64,000 nt of DNA, taken from NCBI GenBank assembly GCA_025041175.1, contig JAKCFJ010000002.1, positions 930,001 through 994,000 on the forward strand, in the 5' to 3' direction. Positions 33,872-43,464 of the stretch are shown here, one piece after another. The translations under genes and the position numbers were made by a program. The notes beneath the pieces are model-generated. The model saw nothing but the letters and a program-made list of their open reading frames with translations, was not told where the DNA came from and did not search any database. Source of the DNA: Halobacteriales archaeon YIM A00010. GTDB lineage: Archaea > Halobacteriota > Halobacteria > Halobacteriales > Haloarculaceae. Every line of letters starts with the position of its first letter. Positions within the stretch are counted from its first letter, which is position 1.

Positions 33872-34825
33872 TCATGCGAGTCGGTACAGCACTGGCATGG
33901 CCCCAGCACGATTTGCTTTGAGATTTGTCTGCACGTAGCTCCGCAAGCCTGGATTCGTCAGTTCCTGCCAGAGGAACCGCAGTCGGCTAATGTCCCACCG
34001 CGCGTTGTTGATAGCGACGTAGTCCGCGTCCTCGTCATTGAAGGGAACGAGCAGCGTCGAATTGTCGAGGTCCGTTTCGGCTACGTACCCTCCTGCCAAG
34101 TAATCGAACAACTCCAGCATCACGGTCGCGTCATCGGCGACGAAGTGATTGAAGATGAACAGACCATCTTGTGACTTGTCGACATCACCAGAAATCTCCG
34201 ATTTCTGGTTAGCAGCCGAGCTCCGCTCGGCGACATCGGCGATGCGCTTTTCGTTGCGCGCAGCCGTGATATGCATCTGCGTGGCCTCGCTCCGTATAGT
34301 CCCCACGAGCGTCCCATATGCTTCCGTGTCCTGCACGTCGGGCACAGCCGCAGTCGACCTCGTCTCGATGAGTACGGCGATATCGAATCGTGCGAGACGA
34401 AGCGAATCCGTATGCTCCTTGATGTACGGGAATCGATGGAATGGAGGCAGGATAACTGCTTTGAAGACAGTGGCCGTCTCGACGGCATCGAGTTGCTCGA
34501 GTTGCCGGGCGCACTGTTTCAGTCTCCTCAAAAGAGTGGCCTTCTCGCCCCCGGCAGGCAATAGCGTAATCGGCAGCGAGGGAGGCTGCACTTCTGCGCC
34601 GATATGAATGTAGCCGAGCGATGTCGGCTCGATGAACTCTGCTTTCGAGTACGTGGAATCAGCGATGTTGTCAGGCTTCGCCTGGCTGCTAACCAGAAAT
34701 CTTCGATTTCTGGTGATGACGGTGTGCTGGTCCGTGGATGACTCTCCTGAATCGGGTTCTGGCTCGGACTCAGTCCTCTGCGAATGGCGATCAGGTTGGC
34801 GTGCGTCGGGAGTGGACGGATCCAT
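33872..34825 (-). CDS. Conserved protein of unknown function, carrying two inverted hairpin repeats
   Basis: The 317-residue soluble protein has no family I recognise. From about residue 65 it looks regular and protein-like: SLGYIHIGAEVQPPSLPITL, ILPPFHRFPYIKEHTD, LIFNHF-like DGLFIFNHFVADDATVML, and a C-terminal half rich in aromatic residues. Two stretches, ITRNRRFLVSS near 38 and AANQKSEISGD near 204, are encoded by the two arms of a 34-base inverted repeat and may be insertions. The ATG at 34825 (MDPSTPD) is supported by the operator palindrome centred 44.5 bases upstream, the same distance as in neighbouring genes. Upstream codons give a non-coding-like extension. Confidence 0.65.
   Translation of the reverse strand: MDPSTPDARQPDRHSQRTESEPEPDSGESSTDQHTVITRNRRFLVSSQAKPDNIADSTYSKAEFIEPTSLGYIHIGAEVQPPSLPITLLPAGGEKATLLRRLKQCARQLEQLDAVETATVFKAVILPPFHRFPYIKEHTDSLRLARFDIAVLIETRSTAAVPDVQDTEAYGTLVGTIRSEATQMHITAARNEKRIADVAERSSAANQKSEISGDVDKSQDGLFIFNHFVADDATVMLELFDYLAGGYVAETDLDNSTLLVPFNDEDADYVAINNARWDISRLRFLWQELTNPGLRSYVQTNLKANRAGAMPVLYRLA
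34184..34217 (+). repeat. Hairpin repeat, right-facing arm of an inverted pair
   Basis: ATCACCAGAAATC-TCC-GATTTCTGG then TTAGCAGCC. The inner part is a perfect 9+3+9 palindrome. The whole 34 bases match the reverse complement of 34684-34717 except in the three loop bases. It lies inside the coding frame of the gene at 33872. Such palindromes near ends are known for IS200/IS605-derived elements (PATEs) in haloarchaea; whether this is one is unproven. Confidence 0.7.
34684..34717 (-). repeat. Hairpin repeat, left-facing arm of an inverted pair
   Basis: The inverse partner of 34184-34217, 466 bases away: GGCTGCTAACCAGAAATC-TTC-GATTTCTGGTGAT, of which the inner part is again a 9+3+9 palindrome. 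The two arms bracket a segment that still reads as one continuous frame with the rest of the protein. Confidence 0.7.
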
Positions 34826-34863: not shown

Positions 34864-34875
34864 CGAACATGTTCT
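34864..34875 (-). promoter_or_regulatory. Operator palindrome A, for the gene at 34825
   Basis: Read toward the gene: AGAACATGTTCG followed by AGCGAATAGC. Centre 44.5 bases from the ATG. One half-site mismatch to CGAA-N4-TTCG. See the regulon finding. Confidence 0.65.
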
Positions 34876-35005
34876 CCTGTCCGTACTGATCAAAGAAGGA
34901 AGTTCGTCGCACTCTTCGTGAGCGATCCAGAGACCACGCAGGCTGTCGAATCTTCCGTAGTACTGCCTGATTTGGTCGGAACGAGCGTACTGGACGCTCT
35001 ACTAC

Positions 35006-35443
35006 TCATGTCGATTCGGTTCCGCGGGCTCGCCATGCTACTCCAAGGCCCACCACCAGTATGACCACGATGACCACGTGATAGACGATGTCCGGGACAG
35101 TGCGGGGACCGACACCAACGACGATCGTCCAGCCCCCGACGAGCGTCCCCAATAGCGCGAACGCCTGCACGCCCGCGGCAATGGAAAACATCGAGCGCGG
35201 ACGAACCCAGGTTATCGCCAAGCCAATGAGTAGAACCATACCGATTACACCTTCGGCGATCATCGCCTCTCGATGTGCATATCCCTGGATGAGTATCCCT
35301 GCGTGAATCATGGCGGCGAGGAGGAACGATATGCCCTCCATGCCCAGCACCGCGCGCATCGTCCGCTTCAGAGGGATTCCCTCTTTCCATCCGGCTTGAT
35401 CATTCGGTCGATTCTCCGACGGTTCGATAGTCGATGGTTCCAT
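35006..35443 (-). CDS. Small integral membrane protein, function unknown
   Basis: The 145-residue protein has a charged N-terminus (1-25) and four hydrophobic segments (GISFLLAAMIHAGILIQGY, IAEGVIGMVLLIGLAITWV, SIAAGVQAFALLGTLVGGWT, IVYHVVIVVILVVGLGVAW). The His in the first segment and the small size recall membrane proteins of redox clusters, but I know no function. The start at 35443 is well supported: the operator palindrome B has its centre exactly 44.5 bases upstream. The overlapping 166-codon frame at 34890 is a shadow. Confidence 0.75.
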   Translation of the reverse strand: MEPSTIEPSENRPNDQAGWKEGIPLKRTMRAVLGMEGISFLLAAMIHAGILIQGYAHREAMIAEGVIGMVLLIGLAITWVRPRSMFSIAAGVQAFALLGTLVGGWTIVVGVGPRTVPDIVYHVVIVVILVVGLGVAWRARGTEST

Positions 35444-35481
35444 AGAACATCAAACGAGGGTAGTCATAGTGACCGTTGTGT

Positions 35482-35493
35482 CGAACATGTTCG
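35482..35493 (-). promoter_or_regulatory. Operator palindrome B, for the gene at 35443
   Basis: CGAACATGTTCG, a perfect 12-base palindrome. Centre 44.5 bases from the ATG of the membrane protein. The neighbouring ABC permease on the other side ends here (minus strand), so only the gene at 35443 is served. Confidence 0.75.
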
Positions 35494-35573
35494 ACGACTG
35501 CCGACGATCGACGAAACGGATCCGAACCGACCTCCACGAACTATGGAATGAACGAGTCACCGCAGCCAACCGT

Positions 35574-36410
35574 CTACTGGACGGCCGCACTCGATGCGCG
35601 ATTGAGGACGTACACGGCCATCCCACCGAGTACAATATCGAGCGCGCCGAGGACGACGAGCGACGGGACAATGACGCCCCAGTCCCAGCCGGACAGCATG
35701 ATCGCCCGGGCGGCGTTCACTCCATACGTGGTCGGGTTGACCGAACTTACCACTTGGAGCCAACCTGGGAGTGCGTCCATTGGAACGAACGCTGTGCTTG
35801 CAAACAGTAAAGGTAGCTGCACGAGGTTCGTCACGATGCCCGTCACACGGGTGCTACCAGTCACGACACCGAGGATGTTCGAGAACGCCATGAACCACAC
35901 CGAGAACACGAGCGCCACGCCGAGAATGCCAACGACACCAAGCAGACCAGTCGTCACCGGTGCGCCAGCCACATACCCGAGACCCAACATAATCAGGGTT
36001 GGCACCACGATCAACAGGATATCAGAGAGCACTTTCCCACTGAACACGGCCGTGCGACTCATCGGCGAGACGAGTGTCTTCTCGAACATCCCGGTCTCGA
36101 TATCCTGGACGAATCCGGTCCCCGAGCCAGCCGCCGTGATCAGCGCGACGAGGATGACGATCGCCGGGACGAGATACGCCACGTAGTCACCACCCGGGAC
36201 GGCTTGCCCCGCAAGCTGGCCAAACACTTGGCTGAACAGCACGAGGAAGATGAGTGGCTCCACCAGTGCGAAGACGAGAACGAACGGCTCGCGCAGCTTC
36301 TTCAGGTTCCAGCGCAGGAGGTTCGTCCAGATATCACCGAGAATACCGTTGCCTGTGGTTTTCTCAGGGGACTGATCGAGTTCATTTTCAGGTTGTGTGG
36401 TTGTCGTCAT
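35574..36410 (-). CDS. ABC-2 type (drug) exporter permease
   Basis: The 278-residue permease of the DrrB/ABC-2 family has six hydrophobic segments (from LVFALVEPLIFLVLFSQVFG), the conserved VSPMSRTAVFSGKVLSD near 150 and VNPTTYGVNAARAIML near 238. The N-terminal 40 residues are hydrophilic. Its start overlaps the stop of the ATPase gene upstream (ATGA type), so the pair forms one exporter and one transcript. Exporters of this type remove hydrophobic compounds. The substrate is unknown; control by the shared palindrome suggests a stress or redox trigger. Confidence 0.9.
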   Translation of the reverse strand: MTTTTQPENELDQSPEKTTGNGILGDIWTNLLRWNLKKLREPFVLVFALVEPLIFLVLFSQVFGQLAGQAVPGGDYVAYLVPAIVILVALITAAGSGTGFVQDIETGMFEKTLVSPMSRTAVFSGKVLSDILLIVVPTLIMLGLGYVAGAPVTTGLLGVVGILGVALVFSVWFMAFSNILGVVTGSTRVTGIVTNLVQLPLLFASTAFVPMDALPGWLQVVSSVNPTTYGVNAARAIMLSGWDWGVIVPSLVVLGALDIVLGGMAVYVLNRASSAAVQ

Positions 36411-37474
36411 TGTCGTGTCTCTATGTGGTGGTCAGTCGAGCGAACCGCTTCGTCCCCAGCGTCGTCGACCGACTCGCCCGTCAGTGAGAGGAACACATCG
36501 TCGAGTGTCGGTGAGCGAATGTTGAACCCGGTGATCGTGACGCCTGCCTCCGAGAGCCCCACGAGGAGGTCGGTTCCAATCTGGCGGGCACGGGTAGACG
36601 TCACGCTCAGTCCGTCCTCTGTCGGTTGGACAGTCTCGATCTCATCTGGAGCTATCACCTCGGAAGCCTCGATAGCTGCTTGAGCGTGTTCGACAGCCGT
36701 GTCGCTCGGATCGGCGAGCGTAATTTCGAGAACATCGCCGCCGACCTGTGATTTGAGGTCGGTGGGCGAGCCGCTGGCGACGATCTCCCCGTCGAGAATG
36801 ACCGCGAGATCCGAACAGAGCGCGTCGGCTTCCTCCAGATACTGGGTGGTGAGGAAGATGGTCGTTCCCTGTCGGTTGATCGCGCGGAAGTACTCCCAGA
36901 GACGGGTGCGGGCCGCTGGATCGAGCCCGGTCGTCGGTTCATCGAGAAAGACGATCGGGGGCTGATGGACCAGCGTCATTGCCGCGTCAAGACGCTTTTT
37001 CTGTCCGCCGGAAAGCGTCCCCGCACGGTCGTCTGCCTTGGCACTGAGTCCGACGAGGTCGAGAAGATCATCGATCCGGGTCCCACGCTCGGCGGGCGGG
37101 ACGCCGTAGGCACGGCAGGCGAAGCGGAGGTCCTCGCGGACTGTGAGTGCCGGGTCGATACTCGTCTCCTGGGCCATATAGCCGATCGACTCACGAACAG
37201 CGTTGGACTCCGTAAGAGCGTCATATCCGTTGACGGTGATCTGCCCGGTCGTCGGCTGGAGCAGCGTCGTGAGCATCTTGATTGTCGTGGTCTTACCTGC
37301 ACCGTTCGCCCCGAGAAAGCCGAAGACTTCACCAGTTGGGATCTCGAGGCTGATGTCCGTCACTGCCTCGGTCCCGTTCGAATATGTCAACCCGAGGTTG
37401 GTCGCTTCGATGGCCAACGCTCGGGTGTGGTCGTTCTCTGTCGTGCGGTCGTGGCTCTGCATCGGTGTACCCAT
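36407..37474 (-). CDS. ABC-2 type (drug) exporter ATP-binding protein, DrrA-like
   Basis: The 355-residue ATPase: Walker A GANGAGKTTTIKMLTTLLQ, YMAQETSIDPALTVRE, signature TLSGGQKKRLDAAMTLVHQ, Walker B IVFLDEPTTGLDPAAR, and a DrrA-type C-terminal regulatory part ending in SLTGESVDD. The ATG at 37474 (MGTPMQSH) is supported by palindrome C at 44.5 bases; the upstream extension of the frame contains that palindrome and is not coding. A second ATG at 37462 is possible. The permease gene overlaps its end. Confidence 0.92.
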   Translation of the reverse strand: MGTPMQSHDRTTENDHTRALAIEATNLGLTYSNGTEAVTDISLEIPTGEVFGFLGANGAGKTTTIKMLTTLLQPTTGQITVNGYDALTESNAVRESIGYMAQETSIDPALTVREDLRFACRAYGVPPAERGTRIDDLLDLVGLSAKADDRAGTLSGGQKKRLDAAMTLVHQPPIVFLDEPTTGLDPAARTRLWEYFRAINRQGTTIFLTTQYLEEADALCSDLAVILDGEIVASGSPTDLKSQVGGDVLEITLADPSDTAVEHAQAAIEASEVIAPDEIETVQPTEDGLSVTSTRARQIGTDLLVGLSEAGVTITGFNIRSPTLDDVFLSLTGESVDDAGDEAVRSTDHHIETRQ

Positions 37475-37512
37475 GTCGCTCAGTACGAGGGAACGTACAG
37501 TGGGTGTTCTCT

Positions 37513-37524
37513 CGAATATGTTCG
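37513..37524 (-). promoter_or_regulatory. Operator palindrome C, for the ABC exporter
   Basis: Read toward the gene: CGAACATATTCG followed by AGAGAACACC. Centre 44.5 bases from the ATG at 37474. It lies about 100 bases from palindrome D, which serves the divergent SDR gene. Confidence 0.7.
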
Positions 37525-37615
37525 CGGGAGAGCGGATCCCTGTCAACGACTTCCCAGTCCTCAGAAGCAGAACAAGGAGACAACTGGATGTCCCATCCCT
37601 TTGAGGATGTCAAGA

Positions 37616-37627
37616 AGAACATGTTCG
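37616..37627 (+). promoter_or_regulatory. Operator palindrome D, for the SDR gene
   Basis: AGAACATGTTCG followed by AGTGAATATTGGTG. Centre 45.5 bases from the ATG at 37667. The downstream part GAATATTGGTG is shared exactly with copy J at 43135. Confidence 0.7.
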
Positions 37628-37666
37628 AGTGAATATTGGTGTAGCCATCGAGCCAACTCGGGGGTG

Positions 37667-38440
37667 ATGACGCAGAACGCATCGCATCTACAGGATCGCG
37701 TCGTACTGGTGACGGGGAGTACCTCTGGAATCGGGCGAGTGACAGCTATTGCTTTCGGACGGGAACAGGCTCGGGTGGCGATCACCTATCACTCCAATCG
37801 TGATGGCGCAGAGGAAACCGCCGACCGCGTGCGTGAGGCAGGCGGAGAGGCGTTCGTCGTGCAGTACGATATGACCGATTCCGAGTCGATCGACACAGCG
37901 GTGCAGGCGGTAGTTGATCACTGGGGAACGATCACCGTACTCGTGAATAACGCTGTCCCGTCGGGCTTGACTCCTACTCCAGTCGAGGAACTATCGCTAG
38001 AGACGTACCAGCGGATCGTTCATGGCATTCAGGATGGCGTTTTCCACACCGTCCAAACAGTACTCCCGGCCATGCGGGACGCCGACTGGGGACGGATCAT
38101 CAACATCTCCTCGAGCTCAGCCGAAATCGGGTCGAGAAACATGGCTCCCTACGCGACAGCCAAGGCTGGCGTCCACGGCTTGACTCGTGTGCTGGCCACT
38201 GAACTCGGCGAGGAAGGGATTCTCTCGAACGTGGTGATGCCAGGCATGGTGCTCACAGAGAAGAACCTCGAACAGGTACCCCAGTCTGACCGTGAGGCTA
38301 TCGCAGAGCAGACGCCATCGAAACGTATAACGACACCCGAGGATGTCGCCAACCTCGTGGTGTTTCTCGGTTCTACGGCTAACGGAAACATCAACGGAGC
38401 CGTCATTCCCGTGACTGGAGGGCTAAACTTACAGCGCTAA
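37667..38440 (+). CDS. SDR-family oxidoreductase, FabG-like
   Basis: A classical SDR of 257 residues: VVLVTGSTSGIGRVTAI near 13, NNAVP near 97, INISSSSAEIGSRNMAPYAT and the catalytic YATAK near 162, and the end NGNINGAVIPVTGGLNL. The ATG at 37667 is fixed by palindrome D at 45.5 bases; the long upstream frame is a shadow of the exporter gene on the other strand. It resembles 3-oxoacyl-reductase-like or quinone/aldehyde reductases. The substrate is unknown. Its membership of the palindrome group suggests a role in redox or carbonyl stress. Confidence 0.88.
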   Translation: MTQNASHLQDRVVLVTGSTSGIGRVTAIAFGREQARVAITYHSNRDGAEETADRVREAGGEAFVVQYDMTDSESIDTAVQAVVDHWGTITVLVNNAVPSGLTPTPVEELSLETYQRIVHGIQDGVFHTVQTVLPAMRDADWGRIINISSSSAEIGSRNMAPYATAKAGVHGLTRVLATELGEEGILSNVVMPGMVLTEKNLEQVPQSDREAIAEQTPSKRITTPEDVANLVVFLGSTANGNINGAVIPVTGGLNLQR

Positions 38441-38653
38441 GTAAGCCGGACTCTGAGGACGGTGTGTTTTGTGGGGTGAAGCAAACTTGAACAAGATGGA
38501 ATGCCTCTGTACCGAGCAATCTCAGTGTGATGTAGTATCATACTATTCTGGCCATCAAATAAGCATTGATACCAATAATATGAGACAAATTAGTCTATCC
38601 AGGCAGCTACTGGCTTCTTCGGATAAGCGACAAGATATCGGAATAGGACCGCT

Positions 38654-38665
38654 CGAATATATTCG
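38654..38665 (+). promoter_or_regulatory. Operator palindrome E, for the universal stress protein gene
   Basis: CGAATATATTCG, a perfect 12-base palindrome, followed by CGGAAACAGTGG. Centre 44.5 bases from the ATG at 38704. Confidence 0.75.
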
Positions 38666-38703
38666 CGGAAACAGTGGAGGGAGCAGAAATCCATGAATCA
38701 TTA

Positions 38704-39252
38704 ATGCCGTCGAGTAGAGACCAGCAGCACAACCTACTGTACGAGACTGTCCTCGTTCTCACAGATGGAAGCAGCCGGGCAAGACGGCTCGCCGAATGGG
38801 CGCTCGTCTTCGATGGAGCACCCGGAAACACAGTTCATCGGGTCGATGTCCTCGACTGCCTCGACTCAGGCGTGGTCATTCAGATCCATAGTGAGAATGT
38901 CCAGAACGAGGATGAATACCAAGAACGAACACATACGCGGGCAGCACCCGATAGCGTGGTGAGTCAGAGTCAGGGACACACCACCACAATCGACGTTCTT
39001 CACGGTGTCCCTTCTGAGGCACTTCTCGATTATCTTGAGGGGTACGCAATCGACTTCACTATCATGTGCATATGTGACAGTTCGTGTCTCAACCGAACAC
39101 TCCTCGGGAGGACGTTCGCCCGCGTCAATCAGGCCGCCACCGTTCCGATGATGACGATTACCGGGGCACGACCCGCACAACCCTCGGAACAAAATCGGTC
39201 ACGTTGTGATCAAGAGGAGACATCCACCCGAAACGAGATAGGGTTCATCTAA
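38704..39252 (+). CDS. Universal stress protein (UspA family)
   Basis: The 182-residue protein begins with the UspA first strand (YETVLVLTDGSSRARRLAEWA). It has the usual second strand (HRVDVLDC), a middle VLHGVPSEALLDYLEGYAID and the third part FTIMCICDS, ending LGRTFARVNQAATVPMMTIT. The ATP-type G-x2-G-x9-G(S/T) motif is weak (CLNRTLLGRTFARV lacks the usual GS). UspA proteins are made in stress and low oxygen. The C-terminal 30 residues are extra and hydrophilic. The start is supported by palindrome E. Confidence 0.85.
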   Translation: MPSSRDQQHNLLYETVLVLTDGSSRARRLAEWALVFDGAPGNTVHRVDVLDCLDSGVVIQIHSENVQNEDEYQERTHTRAAPDSVVSQSQGHTTTIDVLHGVPSEALLDYLEGYAIDFTIMCICDSSCLNRTLLGRTFARVNQAATVPMMTITGARPAQPSEQNRSRCDQEETSTRNEIGFI

Positions 39253-39429
39253 CTGGTCTGCAGTCCAGTCTTGTTGTCCTCGTTGCTCTGGGCTTCGGCT
39301 CAGTCAACGTAAGTTGAGGGCAGTCCTCTGTGCCAGATGTAAGATTCCACCACCAACGGCGAATTGTGCAAACGAACGCCGAGTGACAGATCGAGACGGG
39401 ATTCGAGACAGATCGAGGCATTGGGCTGG

Positions 39430-39747
39430 TTACACTGATCGGCCCTCAGATGTACCGAGGACGAGCGTCCCCAGCGCCAGCAGTACCGCCGCGATGTTGC
39501 CGATCGGACTCGGAAAGAACTCTCCTGGCAGACTCGGGGCAAGCAAGATCACCGTTCTCGTAGCGAGGAGCGCGGAGCCAATTCCAATCCGAACTCGGCG
39601 CGATTGAAACTGTGCCCAAGGTCTCTGACTCGTCCCCGAGAGCAGTCCATGGCTACCTTCTTTACTACGGACATCTGCGGATGAGCCTCGATTCCGTGCC
39701 GCATTCGCTTGATCCGACTTTTCGGTCTGAACTGCTCGTGATGTCAT
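39430..39747 (-). CDS. Small membrane protein, possible gene
   Basis: The 105-residue frame has a charged N-terminal half and two hydrophobic segments (IGIGSALLATRTVILLAPSL and IGNIAAVLLALGTLVLG). The C-terminal half resembles short two-helix haloarchaeal membrane proteins; the first 50 residues are less convincing, so the real start could be later. No operator palindrome is upstream. The flanks 39253-39429 and 39748-39961 show nothing else. Confidence 0.4.
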   Translation of the reverse strand: MTSRAVQTEKSDQANAARNRGSSADVRSKEGSHGLLSGTSQRPWAQFQSRRVRIGIGSALLATRTVILLAPSLPGEFFPSPIGNIAAVLLALGTLVLGTSEGRSV

Positions 39748-39961
39748 GGCTCACGCTCCTCTTGCATGTTTCTGTTCCCTCTCTGCTCGCTCCCCGATGA
39801 CCGCGCCGGTTCGTGCGAGGAGTTCGTACAGGTGTCGGTCATTGAGACCCATACAGGTCGAGTGAACGCACACTGGCCGCTACTCATCTGGGTTGCATCG
39901 CCGCTCTCAATTCGGCTGCTCGGTGCGACAAGAGCGCGAATGTCATTCACTCTCGTCCAGT

Positions 39962-40358
39962 TTATCCTTCGGCGTACACGCTACACCAATCGTCGGGTTC
40001 GATGTCTCCCTCAACGCGGCTACACGTACCCGCGTTAGTGCCGTCTTCAGGTGGCGTGAAAAATTGGCAGTTCACACACTGTTGGTTGCCCTTGGGATGG
40101 TCCTGATAGTTCATTTCATTTTTCGCTGTCTTGCCGGTGACGCTGCTGAGACAGCCAGCAACGGAGAGAACGCTTGTGCTCCCCAGCAGTTGAAGGAATC
40201 GTCGATGGACAGGTCCTGTGTGAGCCGATTGGGGGTCTCGGGTAGTCTGTGATCCGTCGTTGCGGAGTTGCCTCTGTGTGCGTAGCCTTCTCGGCGCGGC
40301 TGGACTGTGCTGGTGGGTCGGGCGCGTTCTGTCGCGTATTGGTCTTAGATGACTTCAC
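39962..40358 (-). pseudogene. High-potential iron-sulfur protein (HiPIP)-like gene with a frameshift
   Basis: On the minus strand one frame, ending at 39962, reads RRFLQLLGSTSVLSVAGC (Tat/lipobox-like signal), then MNYQDHPKGNQQCVNCQFFT and GTCSRVEGDIEPDDWCSVYA. The Cys pattern C-x2-C...C...WC and the closing residues are those of HiPIP-type electron carriers. This frame has no ATG, GTG or TTG start before an upstream stop. A GTG at 40358 in another frame (MKSSKTNTRQNAPD) lies 44.5 bases from palindrome F, so it is probably the original start. A one-base indel, somewhere about 40200-40290, separates the two frames. The gene is probably broken, unless the sequence has an error. HiPIPs carry electrons outside the membrane. 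Confidence 0.7.
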
Positions 40359-40396
40359 ACCACAGAGGCGGAGGGAAAGAGACGTGTATATTCCCG

Positions 40397-40408
40397 CTAA
40401 CGTGTTCG
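40397..40408 (-). promoter_or_regulatory. Operator palindrome F, for the HiPIP-like gene
   Basis: Read toward the gene: CGAACACGTTAG followed by CGGGAATATAC. Two mismatches in the second half. Centre 44.5 bases from the GTG at 40358. Confidence 0.6.
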
Positions 40409-40511
40409 ATGGTGTATTCTTATTGATGTATCTCTCGATTAGAAACGGAATACCGGCCTACGAAGACGAGGTCGCCCACTGTTGTCAGCACTCACCGGCG
40501 GGCTGCGCTCA

Positions 40512-40952
40512 TCAGAGCCATCCACCGACGAACAACAGCGCAAGGGCGACGACACCCGCCACGGAGAACATCATCACGGCGTCGCTCGTAGCCTGTTCGA
40601 CACCACCCACTTCAACGCCATTAGTGAGTCGACGACTCGCCACGTTTGTCACGGCCGAAAGGACGATCCAGAGCCCGACCATCGCCACCACGAGATTTCC
40701 ACGCGTACTGTTCATGAGTGCGTCGTTCGAATATCCTTGTCCGAGCATGTACATGCCGGTCAGGAACATAACGACGGGAGCCACCTTCGAAAACAGGGAA
40801 AACCGCCCGGTCATCCAACTGAGTCCGTCCGCTCCGAGACGGCCCTCGCGCGCCGCCGGAATGACGAGCGCAGCCATGAACACGGTCCAGCCGGCCCAGA
40901 CACCGGCAGTCATCAGGTGCAGTGTGCGTATGAGGGTATCGACGGTTGCCAT
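40512..40952 (-). CDS. CopD-like membrane protein
   Basis: The 146-residue protein has four hydrophobic segments and begins MATVDTLIRTLHLMTAGVWA, with the His and Trp of the first segment as in CopD/DUF2269-like proteins (LHLxxxxxWxG). The rest: AGWTVFMAALVIPAAREGRL, SKVAPVVMFLTGMYMLGQGY, LVVAMVGLWIVLSAVTNVAS, MMFSVAGVVALALLFVGGWL. These proteins bind haem or copper in membranes; genes of the family are common near haloarchaeal nitric oxide and copper enzymes. It is divergent from the HTH_10 regulator and shares palindrome G (centre 47.5 bases from the ATG). Confidence 0.78.
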   Translation of the reverse strand: MATVDTLIRTLHLMTAGVWAGWTVFMAALVIPAAREGRLGADGLSWMTGRFSLFSKVAPVVMFLTGMYMLGQGYSNDALMNSTRGNLVVAMVGLWIVLSAVTNVASRRLTNGVEVGGVEQATSDAVMMFSVAGVVALALLFVGGWL

Positions 40953-40993
40953 TGCGTGACAGACAAGGGGAGTATCTACCATGGACATTCGCT

Positions 40994-41005
40994 CGAATAT
41001 GTTCG
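40994..41005. promoter_or_regulatory. Operator palindrome G, shared by CopD-like and HTH_10 genes
   Basis: CGAATATGTTCG lies between divergent genes: 45.5 bases from the ATG of the HTH_10 regulator (41045) and 47.5 from the CopD-like gene (40952). Flanks on both sides match the extended consensus (CGCTCGAATATGTTCGCAGG). The position suggests that the regulator controls itself and its neighbour. Confidence 0.75.
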
Positions 41006-41044
41006 CAGGCAAATGGATACCCCCGGCCGTCGAATAATCAGTAT

Positions 41045-41674
41045 ATGCCCAGAGCACAACTCAAGGCGAAAATTCCCGGTGGGCCAGCTGCCCTCTCGAC
41101 CGAGTATCCGAACGACGAGTTCCGCATTCTGGCCAGCCATCCCACGGAGGACGGTTTGTTGGCGATTCTCGAAATCCAGACATCGGACACCACGGCACTC
41201 CTTCGAGATCTCGACGAGGCATCCTGGTTGCCCACCTACGAGGTGCTGCATACGGATGAACAGACAGTACTGATTCAGTACTCGGTCCCGTTCGTCCCAC
41301 CACCAGTTCGTGCCCTCCGCGCCTCGGAGAACCTGCCACGGTTTCCCCTCACCATTCGAAATGGATGGGTGATTTCGGACATAACCACCTCACACGAACG
41401 ACTGGCACAGCTCAGAGACGAATTAGATGCCACTGGTCTCACGTACGAAGTCGTGTCAGTCACCCAGTCAACGGAGCCAACCGACCTCCTGACCGACCGC
41501 CAGCGGCGATTCATGACTGAAGCTCTCAAGCATGGGTACTACGATACCCCGCGCGAGTGTTCACTCACCGACCTCGCGGACGTGCTGGAGGTCAGTAAAT
41601 CGACCGTGAGTGTCGTACTCCACAACGCCGAAGAGACGATTGTCAAAGAGTTCTTCGCAGAATCGGTCGAATAG
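41045..41674 (+). CDS. HTH_10 (bat-type) regulator, candidate regulator of the palindrome group
   Basis: The 209-residue protein has an N-terminal sensing domain of the bat family (residues 1-145; FRILASHPTEDGLLAILEIQ and VLIQYSVPFVPPPVRAL) and a C-terminal HTH_10 (about 150-205; RQRRFMTEALKHGYYDTPRE and LADVLEVSKSTVSVVLHNAE). It has only one cysteine, so it is unlike the Cys-rich redox-sensing relatives. The ATG at 41045 is fixed by palindrome G. NarO, the denitrification activator of Haloferax, belongs to the same HTH_10 family and is reported to use CGAA-N4-TTCG sites. By analogy this is the candidate that binds the nearby palindromes, which remains to be shown. Confidence 0.88.
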   Translation: MPRAQLKAKIPGGPAALSTEYPNDEFRILASHPTEDGLLAILEIQTSDTTALLRDLDEASWLPTYEVLHTDEQTVLIQYSVPFVPPPVRALRASENLPRFPLTIRNGWVISDITTSHERLAQLRDELDATGLTYEVVSVTQSTEPTDLLTDRQRRFMTEALKHGYYDTPRECSLTDLADVLEVSKSTVSVVLHNAEETIVKEFFAESVE

Positions 41675-41794
41675 ACTGAAACCCACATCCACGATGTATC
41701 TCACCCGATAGTACCGCAACTGCTTCGATACTCGCGTCATAGTACTGTCTCACGGGTCTGGTTCTCGTTCAGTGCCTCGTCTTGCTCGATTGTG

Positions 41795-41806
41795 TGAAGA
41801 TGTTCG
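41795..41806 (+). promoter_or_regulatory. Operator palindrome H, for the DUF5519 gene
   Basis: TGAAGATGTTCG followed by CATGAATAGCTACG. The centre is 56.5 bases from the ATG at 41857, about one helical turn farther than in the other genes. The downstream GAATAGCTAC matches copy A. Confidence 0.6.
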
Positions 41807-41856
41807 CATGAATAGCTACGATACGTGCGCTCCTCTCTTCGACTCGTGGTACAATA

Positions 41857-42351
41857 ATGACGGGCGACGAATACGCTCCAACAACACCGACAGCGAAAGA
41901 GTACCAAGAGATCGAATCGTCTGTTGAACAGGTCATCGAAACAGTGTCGTCGTGGCCGCAGATCACGACTGGCGAGGGACGATTCAACGCGACGATCTTC
42001 CAACTCGGACAGAGAAAGATTGGACATATCCACGCCCATCCATGGGGGCTGGTGGATATCAGCTATCCACCACCGCTCCGGGAGCAGTTGCTTGCGGAAA
42101 GCCACACGGAAGAACACCACGTGGTTCCGAATCGCGCAACGACCTTTGCTATCGAAGCCAAGGACGACATCAAGCAGGCAGTCTTCCTGCTTCGAGTCTC
42201 CTATTTGTATCACGTAAGTATGCTCGATCAGGCGCCCGATATCGAAGAACTGGTGGACAATTCTGATATCGATGTGAAGACCGAGATCCAGAAATTGGAA
42301 CTCAGTGATGAGCTGCGCGCAGTCTTCATTCGGATCGTCAGTTCTGAGTGA
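41857..42351 (+). CDS. DUF5519 (luciferase-domain) family protein
   Basis: The 164-residue protein matches the DUF5519 family, named for a domain seen with luciferases: IGHIHAHPWGLVDISYPPPL near 58, EEHHVVPNRATTFAIEAKDD near 88, and AVFLLRVSYLYHV near 108. The biochemical function is unknown. The usual C-terminal position of the conserved helix is kept, followed by an extra 40 residues (DIEELVDNSDIDVKTEIQK). No signal or membrane segment. It belongs to the palindrome group through copy H. Confidence 0.82.
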   Translation: MTGDEYAPTTPTAKEYQEIESSVEQVIETVSSWPQITTGEGRFNATIFQLGQRKIGHIHAHPWGLVDISYPPPLREQLLAESHTEEHHVVPNRATTFAIEAKDDIKQAVFLLRVSYLYHVSMLDQAPDIEELVDNSDIDVKTEIQKLELSDELRAVFIRIVSSE

Positions 42352-42603
42352 ACCATCCTCCTCCGAACAAGGAGTTGTCCCGTCGGCTTGTCCTGTAAGA
42401 GACTCGGGTGCAATGAGTGATCCGAGCGTTTTTGACCGACAAGGATGTAGATATCCCTCCATTGGTTATTAAATCCAATTAATGATGCTATCGAAAATAT
42501 CTGGTTTGATGAAATGTGATTGAGATAGTAGCGGTTTTACTATCATCAGACTATTGTGGTATAGAAAGACAGTAGTTCGGTTCTGCACTAACCCTAGTCG
42601 ATT

Positions 42604-42936
42604 TCAGGGAGGATTTCGGAGCCGCGATGCACGCTCTTCGAACTCTTCTTCTTCGATCTCGCCACGCGCGTAGCGCCGACGCAGCACCACGAGTGCCTGA
42701 TCAGCGTTCGTGCTGTCGTCGTTTTGTCGAGTGAGGAGGTACACGACGACTCCGATAGAAGCGGCCAGGACGAGTAGCCAGAATAGAGGCCAAAGAAATC
42801 CGAATCCCCACCCCCATGCTCCACCATTCCAAGAACCACTTCCCGGGCTCATCTGAAGTTGCAGTGCGATCGTATTCGTGCCGCTCGCAATTTGATGGAC
42901 CGATTCCGCGAGCAGGTTCTGGAGTATTCTATTCAC
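42604..42936 (-). CDS. SHOCT-domain small membrane protein
   Basis: The 110-residue protein has an N-terminal extracytoplasmic part with a Gly/Trp-rich stretch (NGGAWGWGFGFLWP), one membrane segment (LFWLLVLAASIGVVVYLLT) and a C-terminal SHOCT motif (ALVVLRRRYARGEIEEEEFE). SHOCT domains are short oligomerisation modules. The start is GTG at 42936, supported by palindrome I at 44.5 bases. Proteins of this layout are common in haloarchaeal stress and metal islands. Confidence 0.85.
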   Translation of the reverse strand: MNRILQNLLAESVHQIASGTNTIALQLQMSPGSGSWNGGAWGWGFGFLWPLFWLLVLAASIGVVVYLLTRQNDDSTNADQALVVLRRRYARGEIEEEEFEERASRLRNPP

Positions 42937-42974
42937 ATGATCTAGGAGAAGTGCCTATACCATGGCTCTTTACG

Positions 42975-42986
42975 CGAACATCTTCA
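42975..42986 (-). promoter_or_regulatory. Operator palindrome I, for the SHOCT gene
   Basis: Read toward the gene: TGAAGATGTTCG followed by CGTAAAGAGCC. Centre 44.5 bases from the GTG at 42936. The 12-mer is identical to copy H. Confidence 0.65.
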
Positions 42987-43134
42987 CAGAGGGATCATCC
43001 AGATATGCCGTAACACGACATGGGACTCTGGCGATGGTGTGCGAACTGCGAGTTTTATTTCGTAGCCGATACGGGCAGACTGGGCTTGGGCAGCTGTTTG
43101 CTATGATCATGATTCGTGAGAACACATGCCGAGA

Positions 43135-43146
43135 TTAATATGTTCG
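43135..43146 (+). promoter_or_regulatory. Operator palindrome J, for the DoxX-like fragment
   Basis: TTAATATGTTCG followed by CGCGAATATTGGTG. Centre 45.5 bases from the ATG at 43186. The first half-site is poor; the downstream half (TTCGCGCGAATATTGGTG) fits well. Confidence 0.6.
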
Positions 43147-43185: not shown

Positions 43186-43464
43186 ATGGCTCCGAAGGGA
43201 GACCGAAACCGATCTGATAGATGGTTCGGGCACGAATCCCATTCCCGGATTGACCGTATAGAAGAGACTATCGTCCACTGGCTCGCCCGTCATAGCGTTC
43301 CGCTACTACACGGTGGCTTGGGGGTGATCTTTCCGTGGTTCGGCGCGCGCAAGTACGTCCCAGGCGCGAGCCCGGCGCAGGAGCTCGTGATCCGAACCGC
43401 TGACATCCTTACAATCAGGCGATTTCAGAATGTTGACTCGAGACTGATTAGTGACTGTTTATAA
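43186..43464 (+). pseudogene. Truncated DoxX/YkgB-like membrane protein gene
   Basis: The 92-residue frame has the N-terminal part of a DoxX/DUF417-like membrane protein: IVHWLARHSVPLLHGGLGVI, FPWFGARKYVPGASPAQELV and IRTADILT. The family normally continues with two or three further membrane segments. Here the frame turns into unrelated sequence (IRRFQNVDSRLISDCL) and stops. Within the kept part, His and Arg replace hydrophobic residues, also a sign of decay. It still carries operator J. The rest (43465-43584) shows no family sequence. Confidence 0.6.

Follow-up and report, generated by a model that had tools for sequence, protein, structure and literature searches.

Gene content and palindromic sites of the cluster

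The DNA analyzed in this study, referred to as the window, is a 64-kb stretch (C2:930001-994000) of a 5.97-Mb genome. It harbors a 9-kb cluster of genes which share an upstream 12-letter palindrome, with the consensus CGAACATGTTCG across the sites located between positions 34864 and 43146 (Table 1). The distance from palindrome center to start codon is 44.5 to 47.5 nucleotides (nt) for all eleven starts with one exception, at 56.5 nt. The shared palindrome at a fixed distance is real: the eleven 12-mers and distances listed in the original prediction were reproduced exactly, and eleven starts are indeed served. The physical sites nevertheless number only ten, since that at 40994-41005 lies between the divergent CopD-like (40952, - strand) and HTH_10 (41045, + strand) genes and is common to both.

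Table 1. Palindromes and genes of the cluster (positions in the window; distances in nt from palindrome center to start codon)
Feature	Position	Strand	Remarks
p34, 317-aa protein of unknown family	33872..34825	-	conserved in syntenic clusters; no Pfam match
Palindrome AGAACATGTTCG	34864..34875	-	start 34825, 44.5; ortholog sites at 43.5-44.5 in L177, L178, L159, L179
mem145, 145-aa protein, probably membrane	35006..35443	-	no Pfam match
Palindrome CGAACATGTTCG	35482..35493	-	start 35443, 44.5
ABC-2 permease	35574..36410	-	second gene of operon, without own site
ABC transporter ATPase, DrrA-type C-terminal domain	36407..37474	-	Pfam
Palindrome CGAACATATTCG	37513..37524	-	ABC operon start 37474, 44.5
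Palindrome AGAACATGTTCG	37616..37627	+	SDR start 37667, 45.5
Short-chain dehydrogenase/reductase (SDR), FabG-like	37667..38440	+	
Palindrome CGAATATATTCG	38654..38665	+	USP start 38704, 44.5
Universal stress protein (USP)	38704..39252	+	
High-potential iron-sulfur protein (HiPIP) gene	39965..40358	-	frameshifted
Palindrome CGAACACGTTAG	40397..40408	-	HiPIP start 40358, 44.5; CGAACATGTTAG at 44.5 before Halocatena marina ortholog
CopD-like membrane protein	40512..40952	-	below Pfam cut-off
Palindrome CGAATATGTTCG	40994..41005	.	shared: 47.5 to CopD-like, 45.5 to HTH_10
HTH_10 transcription factor, candidate palindrome reader	41045..41674	+	C-terminal HTH, helix SKSTVSVVLHNAEE
Palindrome TGAAGATGTTCG	41795..41806	+	start 41857, 56.5
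Luciferase-domain protein (PF17648)	41857..42351	+	
SHOCT-domain protein	42604..42936	-	
Palindrome TGAAGATGTTCG	42975..42986	-	start 42936, 44.5
Half-degenerate palindrome TTAATATGTTCG, then GAATATTGG	43135..43146	+	upstream of ORF 43186, 45.5
92-aa ORF, probably gene remnant	43186..43464	+	no counterpart seen in L177

Two of the eleven cluster genes appear to be damaged. The HiPIP gene, formerly counted among the targets, does possess a palindrome at the usual distance, but comparison with the Halocatena marina ortholog reveals a frameshift located after the GTG start and ahead of the HiPIP domain, indicative of either a pseudogene or a sequencing error. The ORF at 43186 had been described as DoxX-like, an assignment which is unsupported because the ORF encodes a fragment of 92 aa which matches no Pfam family.

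The p34 gene holds two in-frame insertions, missing from its orthologs, which contain copies of a hairpin, AACCAGAAATC-N3-GATTTCTGGT (34187-34210 and 34691-34714). Approximately 30 copies of this hairpin occur in the genome, against none for the reversed control, and next to several of those located outside this gene lies a second hairpin, the sequence of which varies.

Distribution of the palindrome in the window and genome

Under a first-order Markov model, 0.017 perfect CGAAYATRTTCG sites and 0.52 sites with at most one mismatch to CGAAYATRTTCG would be expected in the 64-kb window. The observed numbers are four and six, respectively, all of which lie within the cluster. Enrichment of the loose CGAA-N4-TTCG pattern, when one mismatch is allowed, is weak (72 versus 53 +/- 8 expected). 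The signal is the A/T-rich palindrome core together with its spacing, rather than this loose pattern.

Genome-wide tests were based on pattern searches and sampled stretches. The perfect CGAAYATRTTCG 12-mer is present six times in the genome, with four of these copies located in the cluster, within 6 kb, while the core GAAYATRTTC occurs 33 times (6 in the cluster), compared with 2 occurrences of a reversed-pattern control. When scored by distance to start codons, all six core sites in the cluster lie 44.5 to 47.5 nt from a start, versus 3 of the 27 elsewhere (Fisher p 8e-5), about half of the latter being intragenic. The three outside sites at the right spacing include those of an HTH_10 paralog (C4) and of a copy of the 145-aa protein gene (C1). 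Among the 210 genes of eleven random 20-kb stretches of the genome, none has a site at the cluster spacing.

Conservation of the cluster in related haloarchaea

The cluster, with sites equally distant before the orthologous genes, was found in Haladaptatus pallidirubidus, H. halobius, and a Halocatena marina plasmid. Even the exceptional spacing of the luciferase-domain gene is retained, at 56.5 nt in two loci (L178 and L032) and at 54.5 nt in that of Halocatena marina (L177). More distant loci (Natronococcus, Natrialba, Halosolutus, Natrinema, and others) contain a smaller recurring set of genes, comprising those for HTH_10, the 145-aa protein, the CopD-like protein, the SDR, p34, and the ABC pair, with mem145 being the most frequent partner gene of the regulator. 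A site precedes the ortholog in every locus for the CopD-like protein (8/8), USP (6/6), p34 (4/4), and the SHOCT-domain protein (3/3), and in most loci for the SDR (7/8), mem145 (9/11), and HTH_10 (17/23).

Across the loci of these relatives, 56 of 381 genes have a site at 44.5 to 47.5 nt, versus 2 to 8 at shifted positions. When the 56 promoters are aligned on the palindrome, CGAACATGTTCG-AGT-GAACA emerges as their common sequence, together with an A at position +17.5 and a C at position +31.5; the alignment contains no clear TATA box. The second GAATA which had been reported to follow many of the palindromes is therefore correct and conserved.

In the genome under study, the HTH_10 gene has a further copy (L175 9843-11976; G000:C1, approximately 2.12 Mb), approximately 80% identical, which is broken and split over two frames. 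This broken copy adjoins a copy of the 145-aa protein gene, and a palindrome is located approximately 45 nt before each.

The HTH_10 protein encoded at 41045

The protein encoded at 41045 belongs to the HTH_10 family (PF04967; 62.5 bits versus a Pfam cut-off of 23.1). Its N-terminal half has no Pfam domain, the DmsR_N domain (PF24277) is not matched even at an E value of 10, and the first 140 residues contain no cysteine. Structure prediction, for which an alignment without three plasmid-record rows was employed, models this half with good confidence (mean pLDDT of 88.6) as two beta-alpha-beta modules. Sequence searches retrieved no homologous solved structure; the best Foldseek match of the model, Thermoplasma Ta1207 (5m86, TMq 0.49), suggests that the two folds are related in the N-terminal beta-alpha-beta part only. 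The predicted fold and the lack of cysteines favor a small ligand as the putative signal sensed by this half, over a thiol or iron-sulfur sensor.

This protein is likely the reader of the palindrome, as proposed in the original prediction, where it was the natural candidate: its gene is located in the cluster and carries a site itself, and its orthologs travel with other regulon genes in several genera. The genome encodes about 100 HTH_10 proteins, apparently a large expansion for one haloarchaeal genome.

Relationship to the denitrification motif and NarO

The motif CGAA-N4-TTCG is reportedly described as that of NarO in the study by Hattori from 2016, and members of the NarO/DmsR subfamily possess an N-terminal cysteine cluster for redox sensing. 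Both these proteins (DmsR_N plus HTH_10) and that encoded at 41045 are of the HTH_10 family, and the corresponding positions of NarO-like helices are occupied by Ser-Thr as well, whereas the 41045 protein lacks both the DmsR_N domain and the N-terminal cysteines. Searches of the genome found neither a DmsR_N/NarO-type protein nor members of the NirK, NarG, and DUF2249 families, and no nir, nor, nos, or nar gene is present among the cluster targets, as the original prediction had itself remarked, or near the cluster. As these families were not found in the genome, we conclude that the cluster is no denitrification regulon and that its reader is a protein other than NarO; a nitrogen-oxide role is likewise unsupported.

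The operator itself is akin to the haloarchaeal denitrification motif, a relationship which had been correctly recognized. The Haloferax mediterranei motif, CGAAYATDKTYG (PMC10062603, PMC11218638), is the same 12-mer, present as CGAACATGTTCG in nosZ and nor and as CGAATATGTTCG in nirK of that species, and is matched strictly at 5 of the 11 starts in the cluster, the others being one to three letters off. In H. mediterranei the motif lies 66 to 79 nt upstream of the nirK, nor, and nosZ ATGs, while the sites of the window lie at approximately 45 nt and before unrelated genes. The nor and nosZ promoters require it for full activity, and most of the tested mutations of the site reduce promoter activity (PMC10062603). 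The motif recurs in clusters which include a bacterioopsin-activator-type HTH gene, and it functions in H. mediterranei although NarO is reported to be absent (PMC10062603, PMC11218638); the regulator which binds it is referred to as undisclosed and is unnamed (PMC11218638).

The clusters in which distant relatives of the 41045 protein are found comprise DUF2249, NirK-like, heme-copper-oxidase/Nor-like, and radical-SAM genes. Often they additionally encode a NarO-like protein, so that the two regulators may share operators there. One such relative, KU306_RS18205 of Haloferax larsenii plasmid pHl5678-2 (35% identical to the 41045 protein), is encoded divergently from a nor gene and adjoins genes for a multicopper oxidase and a halocyanin. 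Like the 41045 gene, it has a palindrome in its own promoter, in this case CGAACATGTTCG, and perfect sites occur at the nor, NirK-like, halocyanin, and radical-SAM genes; unlike that of the window, this set of targets consists of denitrification genes, with a spacing of 48.5 to 73.5 nt. The H. larsenii nor/nirK cluster resembles that described around E6P09_00735 in H. mediterranei.

Covariation of the recognition helix and the outer operator base

From the searched genomes and named plasmids, 108 HTH_10 relatives were sampled, among which 64 have a palindrome of the same type in their own promoter. The own-promoter scan scored only core and symmetry, the identity of the outer base being no part of the score. 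A Thr at residue 4 of the recognition-helix segment coincides with an outer C in 37 of 37 relatives, and any other residue with an outer T in 23 of 24, the exception being a Ser with C. Ala, Gly, or Val at this position go with an outer T or G, the latter being the outer base of the K-S-A helix group. The correlation persists after thinning to below 60% identity (Thr/Ser with C, 15/15; others with T or G, 11/11). The independent evolutionary switches behind it are few: a tree-based test yielded three supported independent pairs, of which two agree and one is neutral, and the sign test is not significant.

Proteins with a K-A-T helix have the operator CAAACATGTTTG, which suggests that the Ser preceding residue 4 reads the second base of the operator. 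Several orthologs with an Arg after the helix (SKSTASR, GKSTASR) are associated with degenerate sites, and no good site was found for the Halobacterium hubeiense relative; both observations count against the proposed mechanism.

Proposed regulatory mechanism and alternatives

The explanation which best accommodates these results, and which we hold to be probable, is that the 41045 protein is an autoregulated activator of a local accessory regulon, the ten palindromes being the operators of this one small regulon. Sites, spacing, and conservation agree with the earlier prediction of a compact regulon whose genes have a common operator directly before the core promoter. The protein would bind CGAACATGTTCG as a dimer approximately 45 nt upstream of presumably leaderless starts, at a place which borders the BRE/TATA position on its upstream side. 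It would thereby activate nine or ten transcription units, among them its own gene and that of the divergent CopD-like protein, and would read the outer C:G pair through the Ser-Thr of its recognition helix (S-K-S-T). The predicted products (an ABC-2 exporter, an SDR oxidoreductase, HiPIP, USP, the CopD-like and other membrane proteins, and a luciferase-domain protein) suggest that the most likely role of the module is in redox or toxic-compound stress, combined with export, and low oxygen is a possible signal.

A NarO-like regulon responding to low oxygen or nitrogen oxides, as originally proposed, would account for the identity of the motif with that of the H. mediterranei denitrification promoters, for the perfect sites in the nor/nirK/DUF2249 clusters which contain distant relatives of the regulator, and for the HiPIP in the module. 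It is nonetheless rather doubtful, as the NirK, NarG, DUF2249, and DmsR_N/NarO families were not found in the genome and the majority of the genes in the module are not known to be connected with anaerobic respiration. We regard as unlikely that the HTH_10 protein is instead a repressor which a toxic compound would release. Repressor systems often feature autoregulation and an operator shared by divergent genes, and an exporter and an oxidoreductase are among the targets; however, the sites lie upstream of the BRE/TATA position and the promoter alignment contains no good TATA box, which indicates activator dependence, and the mutations of the H. mediterranei site mostly lower promoter activity (PMC10062603).

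It is similarly improbable that the regulon is real but is read mainly by another HTH_10 paralog, or that several paralogs share its operators. The approximately 100 HTH_10 genes of the genome could supply such a reader, and several close paralogs with Ser-Thr helices could also bind the palindrome, among which that at C1:858042, like the broken copy near C1:2.12 Mb, has near-identical operators and helices. Against this, the 41045 gene lies inside the cluster and bears a site, and its orthologs accompany the regulon genes. The notion of a dispersed repeat, or of palindromes which match by chance in intergenic DNA rich in A and T, draws on the weak enrichment of CGAA-N4-TTCG with one mismatch, and its probability is negligible: it is already contradicted by conservation across genera, and the fixed spacing and the lack of such sites among the genes of the random stretches led us to reject both chance matches and a loose palindrome.

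Returning to the 41045 protein as an activator, the cluster is of wider interest because the literature describes the protein which reads the denitrification motif of haloarchaea as unknown (PMC10062603, PMC11218638), and a genome free of NarO/DmsR isolates one candidate regulator lineage together with its operators. One operator appears wired to two unrelated gene sets, for denitrification elsewhere and for export/redox functions here. The sequence comparisons would be consistent with a broader proposal, which could equally turn out right or wrong: a lineage of small HTH_10 activators lacking an N-terminal cysteine cluster may be the unnamed reader which recognizes the CGAACATGTTCG operator in haloarchaea. 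It would do so not only at denitrification genes but also, where a genome lacks NarO, in a separate accessory regulon for export and redox functions, and one helix residue (Thr/Ser or Ala/Gly/Val) would set the outer base pair (C or T). The cluster thus yields a testable recognition code for a family with approximately 100 members in this genome alone; if the code is true, a Thr-to-Ala helix mutant of the 41045 protein would shift its preference to TGAACATGTTCA.

Two further groups of HTH_10 relatives were observed. A related clade with the helix NQSA (L146, L148, L149, L150, L154, L192, and L195) has TGAATATATTCA approximately 62 nt before its own starts, a position shifted by 16 to 17 nt from the usual 45. 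Relatives with a K-S-S helix (L155, L204, L209, and L211) have GAAACCGGTTTC in their own promoters at 41 to 43 nt, a different core which could extend the recognition code.
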